Assembly: GCF_900142545.1 (NCBI RefSeq)
Contig: NZ_FRBF01000025.1
Span: 1 to 32,937 of the forward strand
Length of the DNA: 32,937 bases
Origin: Fibrobacter sp. UWT2
Lineage (GTDB): Bacteria > Fibrobacterota > Fibrobacteria > Fibrobacterales > Fibrobacteraceae
Reading direction: 5' to 3'
In this document: positions 5,251 through 32,933 of the stretch, one piece after another
Numbering within the stretch: position 1 is the stretch's first letter
How the letters are laid out: each line of letters starts with the position of its first letter
The notes under the pieces: generated by a model
The model's database searches: none
Told to the model about the DNA's origin: nothing
Seen by the model: only the letters and a program-made list of their open reading frames with translations
Made by a program: the position numbers and the translations under genes

Positions 5251-5568
5251 ATGGCTACTACAAAGACTGCAAAGAAGCCGGCTGCTAAGAAGCCCGCTGC
5301 TAAGAAACCCGCTGCCGCTAAGAAGCCGGCCGCTGCTAAGAAGCCCGCTGCTGCAAAGAAGCCGGCTGCTAAGAAGCCCGCCGCCAAGAAGCCGGCCGCT
5401 GCTAAGAAGCCCGCTGCTGCAAAGAAGCCCGCTGCAAAGAAGCCCGCTGCAAAGAAGCCCGCCGCCAAGAAGCCGGCTGCTGCTAAGAAGCCCGCTGCTA
5501 AGAAGCCGGCCGCTAAGAAGCCCGCTGCTGCAAAGAAGCCGGCTGCTAAGAAGGCTGCAAAGAAGTAA
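5251..5568 (+). CDS. Histone H1-like (KKPAA)n repeat protein
   Basis: The 105-residue protein is almost entirely 17 tandem KKPAA or KKPAAA units after a short MATTKTA start, ending KKAAKK. It contains essentially only Lys, Ala and Pro. Such proteins resemble eukaryotic H1 tails and the AlgP or HctB-type bacterial proteins, and are expected to bind DNA non-specifically through Lys. AAGGAAG precedes the ATG at 5251; a further in-frame upstream start at 5170 has no good ribosome site. The gene is monocistronic, with an AT-rich upstream region and a strong terminator. The near-identical codons in each unit make unit number prone to slippage. Function as a nucleoid protein is inference. Confidence 0.8.
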   Translation: MATTKTAKKPAAKKPAAKKPAAAKKPAAAKKPAAAKKPAAKKPAAKKPAAAKKPAAAKKPAAKKPAAKKPAAKKPAAAKKPAAKKPAAKKPAAAKKPAAKKAAKK

Positions 5569-5591: not shown

Positions 5592-5626
5592 CGAGCCCTG
5601 AACTTGTTTCAGGGTTCGTTTTTTTT
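5592..5626 (+). terminator. Terminator after the H1-like gene
   Basis: Eleven-base-pair stem (one G-T pair) built on CCCTGAA/TTCAGGG with a five-base loop, followed by eight T. The arm CTGAAC resembles the hairpin repeat family found elsewhere in the window. Confidence 0.9.
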
Positions 5627-5657: not shown

Positions 5658-6059
5658 ATGATTTCAGAAAAAGACCTCGCCGAACTCGAAAAAATCCCCT
5701 ACGAACAGCGCATTGAGCGCGTCGAAAAACTTTTAGAAGGCAAAAACGAGCCGCGCGCCTTTGAGCTCGGGCTTTTGCTCGCCTTGAAGATGGGGCAAGA
5801 GATTCGCGAAGGCAAGGAACTTGGATCTGATTCGGGCGACTTGGTCGCCAGCTGGAGCGGAAAGCACCCGGATTCAGTCGTGGAAGAAGCAATTGCGTTT
5901 GCGAAAGAGTTCCTGATGAACCCGGCGGGGATTGCAGAAAAGATTAAGCGGGGGTTGCAGAAACAGGATGCTGATGCTGATAGTCATCAGCATGACGAGC
6001 AGAAACAGGATGCCGATGCTGACCTGCGTCAGCATGACCGTGAGGGCAACGAGGCGTAG
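5658..6059 (+). CDS. Small acidic protein of unknown function with repeat-derived tail
   Basis: The 133-residue protein is not recognised. Residues 1-100 are rich in Glu, Leu and Lys and look all-helical, with no signal peptide. Residues 101-128 are two 14-residue copies of QKQDADADxxQHDx encoded by a 42-bp tandem DNA repeat that contains a hairpin element. The tail therefore probably arose by insertion of repeat DNA rather than by selection for protein function. The start at 5658 is the first ATG after a TAnnTTTG box. One base separates the stop codon from the Ppx/GppA gene, so the two are likely cotranscribed and perhaps translationally coupled. Confidence 0.6.
   Translation: MISEKDLAELEKIPYEQRIERVEKLLEGKNEPRAFELGLLLALKMGQEIREGKELGSDSGDLVASWSGKHPDSVVEEAIAFAKEFLMNPAGIAEKIKRGLQKQDADADSHQHDEQKQDADADLRQHDREGNEA
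5958..6041 (+). repeat. Two 42-bp tandem repeats with hairpins inside a coding region
   Basis: Copies at 5958-5999 and 6000-6041 both start CAGAAACAGGATG. Each holds a palindrome followed by GAC: arms ATGCTGAT/ATCAGCAT at 5974-5993 and ATGCTGAC/GTCAGCAT at 6016-6035. The innermost pair changes from T-A to C-G, so pairing is kept. Repeat length is a multiple of three, so the reading frame survives. Confidence 0.85.
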
Positions 6060-6060
6060 A

Positions 6061-6933
6061 ATGGATAACAAGCTGATAGCGACGGTTGATATCGGGAGTC
6101 ACAGCTGCATTCTGCTGATTGCGGCGTTTGAGGAGGGGGTGCTGGTTCCCAAGCTCCAGAAGGTGGAAGTCTGCCGACTGGGCGAAGATATTTACGAACA
6201 CGGCGCCATTACCGAAAAGCGAATCAAGGAACTAGAAGCCATCATGACGAAGTTCCGCATGGACCTGCACGCGCTGGGCGCAAACCTCAAGGCCGCGGTG
6301 ATGACCGAAGCCATGCGCAACGCCGAGAACCCGGACGAAGTGATTGCCGCTGTCGAAAAGGCGCTCTGGATCAAGCCGCGAATCATCAGCGGCGAAGAAG
6401 AAGGCAAGCTCACCTACCGCTCGGTCAAGGAATGGCACGGCGAAGGCCTCGTGACTATTGACATTGGCGGCGGTTCCACGGAACTCAGCAACGGCGACAA
6501 CACGTTCTCGATTCCAGTGGGCGCACTCAAGATGTTCAAGGCCATGGGTCCGATCCCTGGCCCCGAATACAAGAAGTTCGTGAAGGAAACCTTCAAGGAA
6601 GTCAGCTTCAAGGGCATGACCAAGAAGCCGGTGTACTTGATTGGCGGCACCGGTACGGCACTTGCGATGGTCTACCTGAACAAGCAGCAGTTCGACTACA
6701 AGGCGATCGAAGGCCTGGAACTTTCCATTAGCGATCTGGATGCCGTGACGACAAAAATTTCGAACCTGTCCAAGGAACTGCGCGCCATGCTCCCGGGCCT
6801 TGAAAACGGCCGTCACGAAGTGATTATTTGCGGGCTGTTCTGGCTGAAGTCGCTCCTGGAAAAACTCCGCGTCGAAACATTTAAGATTAGTACAGCCGGT
6901 TTAAGATTCGGACTACTTTATGAGAATCAATAA
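6061..6933 (+). CDS. Ppx/GppA family phosphatase (exopolyphosphatase / pppGpp phosphatase)
   Basis: The 290-residue protein has the actin-like ATPase-fold motifs of Ppx/GppA enzymes: VDIGSHS at residues 8-14, SGEEEGKLTYR in the middle, TIDIGGGSTEL as the second phosphate-binding motif, and a later IGGTGTA. These enzymes remove terminal phosphate from polyphosphate or convert pppGpp to ppGpp in the cytoplasm. Its length matches the short class that lacks the C-terminal HD-type domain. Which substrate is used cannot be told from sequence. The gene follows the small acidic protein by one base and overlaps the pseudouridine synthase by 14 bases. Confidence 0.88.
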   Translation: MDNKLIATVDIGSHSCILLIAAFEEGVLVPKLQKVEVCRLGEDIYEHGAITEKRIKELEAIMTKFRMDLHALGANLKAAVMTEAMRNAENPDEVIAAVEKALWIKPRIISGEEEGKLTYRSVKEWHGEGLVTIDIGGGSTELSNGDNTFSIPVGALKMFKAMGPIPGPEYKKFVKETFKEVSFKGMTKKPVYLIGGTGTALAMVYLNKQQFDYKAIEGLELSISDLDAVTTKISNLSKELRAMLPGLENGRHEVIICGLFWLKSLLEKLRVETFKISTAGLRFGLLYENQ

Positions 6934-10815: not shown

Positions 10816-10833
10816 GCCCCTGAAACAAAGCCG

Positions 10834-10857
10834 ATGCTGAACCAAGTTCAGCATGAC
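10834..10857 (+). repeat. Hairpin-GAC repeat element
   Basis: Arms ATGCTGAAC and GTTCAGCAT (nine pairs), loop CAA, then GAC; total 24 nt. It is the best-formed member of the family in the window. Confidence 0.8.
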
Positions 10858-10885
10858 GTTGGGAATGCTGACCCTGAGAATGCCG

Positions 10886-10909
10886 ACTCTGAACCAAGTT
10901 CAGAGTGAC
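10886..10909 (+). repeat. Hairpin-GAC repeat element
   Basis: Arms ACTCTGAAC and GTTCAGAGT (nine pairs), loop CAA, then GAC. Compared with the copy at 10834 the outer pairs differ on both arms, so base pairing is retained. Confidence 0.8.
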
Positions 10910-10922
10910 AATGTAGGCGGAT

Positions 10923-13341: not shown

Positions 13342-13359
13342 ATGCCGATGTCTATGCCG

Positions 13360-13383
13360 ATGCCGGAACGAGTCCGGCATGAC
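13360..13383 (+). repeat. Hairpin-GAC repeat element
   Basis: Arms ATGCCGGA and TCCGGCAT, then GAC; total 24 nt. Relative to the copy at 10834 stem positions 5 and 7 change from T-A and A-T to C-G and G-C. It lies between two convergent genes. Confidence 0.8.
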
Positions 13384-26032: not shown

Positions 26033-26041
26033 AAAAAGCTG

Positions 26042-26065
26042 AACCCGGACCGAGTCCGGATTGAC
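26042..26065 (+). repeat. Hairpin-GAC repeat element
   Basis: Inner arms CCGGAC and GTCCGG with loop CGA, outer A-T pairs with one mismatch, then GAC; 24 nt in all. It lies just after the GH3 stop, between convergent genes. Confidence 0.75.
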
Positions 26066-26082
26066 ACTTCAGGCGAGAGTCA

Positions 26083-32842: not shown

Positions 32843-32933
32843 TAGTTGACCCTTAAAAAGTCACTTCGCGAGCGCAGGATAAGGAGGTTCGCCGTTTTTA
32901 TTCACCCCTTCCCGGCAAAGGAAGCAACAGTAT
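32843..32933. repeat. 91-bp terminal inverted repeat, right copy
   Basis: Exact reverse complement of positions 1-91. Four further bases follow to the window end. It truncates the GH5 gene. Read outward it starts TTGACCC and carries AAGGAGG, but no start codon follows at a useful distance. Confidence 0.9.

Follow-up and report, generated by a model that had tools for sequence, protein, structure and literature searches.

In-frame REP-type Units at the End of a Protein Gene

The gene for a 133-residue protein in Fibrobacter sp. UWT2 ends in two tandem units that are very probably in-frame copies of a dispersed CGTC-tagged REP-type repeat, inserted in a tolerant and probably unstructured protein tail. 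The gene lies in the analyzed window, a stretch of 32,937 nucleotides that constitutes one contig of the 3.49-Mb source genome (G000). It occupies positions 5658..6059 of the plus strand (open reading frame 5658-6056, stop codon 6057-6059), and family searches returned no significant match for its product. Two tandem 42-bp units, each carrying a palindrome plus GAC, had been proposed in an initial annotation of this DNA, and both were recovered in frame on the plus strand. Unit 1 (5958-5999) comprises codons 101-114 and encodes QKQDADADSHQHDE; unit 2 (6000-6041) comprises codons 115-128 and encodes QKQDADADLRQHDR. The units are 85% identical over 40 nt, and their leaders are nearly identical in the source genome.

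Each unit contains a hairpin with an 8-bp stem, a 4-nt loop, and a GAC tag. Hairpin 1 (5973-5996, plus strand) has the stem ATGCTGAT/ATCAGCAT and the loop AGTC, and hairpin 2 (6015-6038, plus strand) has the stem ATGCTGAC/GTCAGCAT and the loop CTGC. Read on the minus strand together with the next base, the tag is CGTC for hairpin 1 and the degenerate GGTC for hairpin 2. The innermost stem pair is T-A in the former and C-G in the latter, which verified the compensatory difference claimed initially. In a structure model built from six sequences, which was weak overall (mean pLDDT of 57.6), residues 102-133 had pLDDT values below 50, consistent with a disordered tail.

Dispersed Members of the Hairpin Family

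The pattern GATGCTGA-N3..8-TCAGCATGAC matched 15 times in the 3.49-Mb source genome, and the reversed control pattern did not match at all. The unit hairpins exceed chance, and their family is dispersed rather than local. The 24-nt core of unit 2 has an identical intergenic copy (G000:C3:258865-258888), and tandem groups of the family form intergenic arrays with 41-nt spacing on contigs C3, C6, and C11. Within the window, an intergenic family member was located at 10833..10857 (GATGCTGAACCAAGTTCAGCATGAC), related intergenic hairpins at 10882..10912 (CTCTGAACCAAGTTCAGAGTGAC) and 13359..13383 (GATGCCGGAACGAGTCCGGCATGAC), and, by repeat-family comparison, a degenerate intergenic member of the unit-hairpin type at 26038..26066, all on the plus strand.

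In a 693-kb portion of the source genome, the trinucleotide that most often followed AT-flanked palindromes (8 bp or longer) was GAC (16 of 79), with TTT, as in terminators, in second place (11 of 79). A sample of 1.49 Mb (43% of the genome) contained 40 tagged elements, 30 of which lay outside called genes even though 83% of the sample is coding; the mostly intergenic distribution was thus observed directly. Across the genus, the unit-hairpin family was present in 24 of 80 genomes and a second tagged family, GTCATCCTGAGCG...CGAAGGATC, in 76 of 80. G077 and G079 together held 28 copies of the unit-hairpin family, only 4 of them intragenic (2 in the orthologue of the 133-residue protein gene and 2 in BirA).

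These copies bear on whether the tail is an ordinary protein-level tandem repeat, in which a 42-bp segment of an acidic, histidine-rich tail was duplicated and the hairpin arises incidentally from the codons. The near-identical leaders in the source genome indicate that a duplication or homogenization did happen, and because of them the insertion account also needs such a step. Nevertheless, we consider the protein-level repeat very improbable. Copies of the 24 nt of unit 2 exist in BirA and in DNA that encodes no protein, and such dispersed copies largely refute it; moreover, one stem pair has changed in a compensated way between the two hairpins, and the tails of other species hold hairpins unrelated to these.

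An adaptation of the 42-nt unit spacing to the reading frame, as against 41 nt in the intergenic arrays of the source genome, is not claimed, array spacings in the genus being 40, 41, 43, 48, and 90 nt. A separate array in another species (G037:C30:19077-20206) consists of 11 copies of GATGCTGACCTGCGTCAGCATGAC with spacings of 48 and 85-90 nt.

Variation of the Tail among Congeneric Species

Orthologues of the 133-residue protein gene were found in 74 of 80 congeneric genomes. As evident from the comparison for which the initial annotation had called, approximately residues 1-98 are kept across the genus and the tail is hypervariable. Tagged elements of six types occurred in the tails of 11 of the 74 species. 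Both units were found elsewhere only in G076 and G077, where the two hairpins are the same but the leaders have diverged. In the tail of G079, a CATCCTGAG element (SPTCHPERSDSEVEGSS) comes after a half copy of unit 1; this element is also present in the tails of G044 and G017. Other tails bear ATCCCGGG-TCGAG-CCCGGGAT-GAC (G004), ATCCCCG...CGGGGAT-GAC (G070), ATGCC...GGCAT-GAC (G019 and G064), or GTC-ATCCTGG...AGGATCC (G050), and those of G039, G002, G058, and G074 are empty. Presence and absence of whole elements, and occupation of one site by different elements, were therefore seen directly. Distant orthologues with a conserved tail, the finding that the initial annotation had named as contrary to its reading, were not seen.

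Untagged inserts in the tail differ as well, for example an 84-nt block that is present in G049 and missing in G014. Palindromic inserts without a GAC tag were noted in further species (loci L024, L026, and L028 compared with L025; L075), such as TGCCCTGGACCTGTTCCAGGGCA in G068. Between the source genome and G077, the hairpins were identical at 47 of 48 bases and the core at 272 of 300; a stronger conservation of the hairpins is suggestive at most.

Differences between tails might instead reflect exchange of whole tails between species by homologous recombination rather than insertion. Such an explanation finds a basis in G079 and G044/G017, which sit on separate tree branches and share both the CATCCTGAG element and its right flank. 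As a general account we consider it unlikely: recombination is unable to generate the first copies, and unrelated in-frame elements occur at other loci, including BirA and RNase HII (filled in G079 versus empty in G058). Insertion of elements remains the preferred reading, and some tails may additionally have spread by interspecies recombination, as the sharing among these three species would suggest.

Reading Frame of the Tail and the Downstream ppx Gene

The stop codon of the 133-residue protein gene ends 1 nt before the start, at 6061, of a gene for a Ppx/GppA-family phosphatase (6061..6933, plus strand; PF02541, E value of 2.8e-35). In 61 of 74 genomes the orthologue and ppx overlap by 8 or 11 nt, with the open reading frame ending inside the ppx start. 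Changes in the distance from the conserved core to ppx were counted on a tree built without the tail. At least 46 changes were required, of which only 3 altered the phase, whereas two-thirds would be expected to do so under unconstrained indels (binomial P of about 1e-17). The upkeep of the frame was thus observed directly, and so many length changes with so few phase changes imply, as far as sequence comparison can tell, that the tail is read in frame. The frame into ppx is probably maintained for translational coupling of both genes.

The hairpins are located directly 5' of the start of ppx, in an overlapping pair of genes, and might be retained for an effect on ppx at the RNA or DNA level, through mRNA stability, coupling, or attenuation, with coding being secondary. 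In the text of Di Nocera et al. (2013; PMC3733652), REPs are reported mostly downstream of genes and as probably transcribed. We nonetheless regard a regulatory role as distinctly unlikely. Most orthologues have no hairpin at this site, the region folded no better than shuffled sequences (z of -1.25), similar elements reside inside enzymes at a distance from gene starts, and the frame of the tail is maintained. A search of the tail region against Rfam gave no match.

In-frame Elements in Other Proteins

A search of other proteins for the encoded segment had been suggested initially. It was successful: BirA of G076, G077, and G079 contains ADADLRQHD, encoded by the 24-nt element of unit 2 in the identical frame. 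Clear internal in-frame cases were sought in 1.49 Mb (43%) of the source genome. Tagged hairpins were found in an RlmL-like methyltransferase (C2:81978-83381), with two units 48 nt apart, in BirA (C3:200683-201597), in a radical-SAM methylthiotransferase-like protein (C4:70791-72092), and in TrpCF (C4:142701-144218, L243), which reads FAEKIRV[CHPERSANGVEGS]PLLVGVITDP. Related species added RNase HII in G079, HrpB in G079 and G044, and a DEAD-box helicase of G079 with two copies, the last two proteins being named from sequence rather than by family search. The insert of TrpCF, CHPERSANGVEGS, is inside the PRAI domain, and an element is found at that position in the related species G079 (L145) as well.

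The extra segment of BirA maps to GILVELTGKTGDAAQIVIGAGIN of Escherichia coli BirA, which forms a short connection in the solved structure. Comparison of the loop (loci L247-L276 and G000:C3:200683-201597) covered 29 readable species. A full tagged hairpin was present in 9 of them (five types, one reversed) and a partial one in 1, and most others had a short loop. This loop is the second site, after the tail of the 133-residue protein, that has repeatedly accepted elements. The variable loop of RNase HII in related species (L177-L188) holds three kinds of filler: the tagged palindrome of G079, SLTTSHQPLTT from CCACTAACCACTA-like repeats (G000, G044, G040, and G039), and AEVLGSPLKAQGS (G004, G077, G076, and G002).

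One intragenic hairpin of the source genome (C4:125970) was set aside for its appearance, which is unlike the family. For two others close to the N termini of called genes (C1:256084 and C3:57443), the true gene start may be farther downstream, beyond the hairpin.

Comparison with Known Repeat Systems

Rickettsia, a difficult subject for experiments, provides the best-known examples of palindromic repeats inserted in frame into proteins. The initial annotation had invoked the Rickettsia palindromic elements, and the likeness holds: in both cases, short palindromes stand in frame in unrelated proteins and are missing in orthologues. Fibrobacter belongs to another phylum, and in it the element that fills a given protein site varies from species to species. 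A stem of the ATTCCC type, similar to that of the Neisseria dRS3 repeats, which cluster in large arrays, occurs in Fibrobacter in intergenic DNA as well as in the BirA gene of G058.

The text of PMC3733652 describes CGTC-tagged REPs as numerous dispersed and mostly intergenic copies with an unpaired CGTC, TGTC, or CCTC tag at one end, an 8-9 bp stem whose first bases are AT, and a loop of 4-5 nt; some copies lie in frame within genes, and no dedicated transposase is associated with them. It assigns Rickettsia RPE-4 to the CGTC-4 repeats and both RPE-6 and Neisseria dRS3 to the CGTC-1 repeats. By anatomy, the Fibrobacter elements fit this superfamily. The tags are CGTC in unit 1, GGTC in unit 2, and mostly TGTC or CGTC in the other copies of the source genome; the 8-bp stems start with AT, the loops AGTC and CTGC have the appropriate length, and three-quarters of the sampled elements are outside called genes. 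A profile search of the source genome for the Y1 (RAYT-type) transposase, PF01797, was negative. With a length of about 24-40 bp, the elements are short REPs like those of the RPE-4/RPE-6 superfamily and shorter than the RPE-1 type, so that the proposed Rickettsia link was upheld in this narrower form; it is based on the classification given in the text of PMC3733652 rather than on direct comparison with Rickettsia genomes.

Two features differ. The tagged strand continues after the stem with CAG or CGG, or with CTC in other copies, instead of a short tail fitting CCA; because the source text ascribes such a tail to most but not all CGTC-REP families, the mismatch was not treated as excluding. 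Arrays in the same orientation with spacings of 40-48 nt are common in Fibrobacter, unlike CGTC REPs, among which, according to the text of PMC3733652, head-head dimers prevail and clusters are rare. The same text provides a precedent for shared sites in two Xanthomonas species that carry different REPs at about the same place in recB. GTAG REPs and REPINs with RAYT resemble the Fibrobacter elements in size, palindrome, dispersed copies, and occasional intragenic copies; their tag differs from the GTC-type tag found here, and PF01797 is missing from the source genome.

The kind of phenomenon is already known, and Fibrobacter is a new, well resolved case of it. New are the group of hosts, the acceptor sites that are used recurrently, and the dense series of alleles with and without elements. 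No paper linking Fibrobacter to palindromic elements or REPs came up in literature searches, and Fibrobacter is not named in the text of PMC3733652 proper, as distinct from its figures and supplements, in which an earlier notice is possible.

Proposed Origin and Spread

An element would be copied into a new site by a mobilizer acting in trans. The insertion would survive only if it were a multiple of three bases, kept the frame free of stops, and landed in a loop or tail, such that purifying selection would leave only frame-neutral insertions in tolerant places. The two-unit array probably predates the split of the G000 and G076/G077 lineages, because their hairpins match in identity and order. 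Translation of the tail would have been maintained because its stop codon falls at or within the start of ppx, probably coupling the translation of the two genes, and the added peptide is most likely functionless and simply tolerated.

A resident Y1/RAYT transposase was rejected as the mobilizer. PF01797 was found in 27 of 80 congeners with no visible relation to the distribution of elements, and it is absent from the element carriers G000, G004, G044, G076, and G079. Flanks gave no signal of target-site duplication, the longest shared word averaging 4.3 nt compared with 4.0 nt at shifted places; the sole long word was the tandem leader of the two units in the 133-residue protein gene.

It is a real possibility, which we put forward tentatively, that several unrelated tagged-palindrome families are still invading Fibrobacter proteins and repeatedly fill the same few sites via a mobilizer other than the known RAYTs. 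If so, ongoing invasion would be rewriting linkers of core enzymes species by species, as in the tail of the 133-residue protein, the BirA loop, and the RNase HII loop. Fibrobacter is a rumen bacterium. Tens of free-living species of this genus offer empty and filled versions of the tail, BirA, and RNase HII, an allele series that allows tests of movement without a known transposase, of which protein sites accept elements, and of the relevance of the added peptides.

Other Features of the Window

Upstream of the 133-residue protein gene, positions 5251-5568 encode a histone H1-like protein of AAKKPAA repeats. Just 3' of it, at about 5596-5625, an imperfect palindrome of the CCTGAACTTGTTTCAGG type with a T-run resembles the REP stems and is probably the terminator of this gene. 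The contig ends carry a perfect 91-nt inverted repeat (1-91 and 32843-32933), which is probably a repeated sequence at which the assembly broke off.
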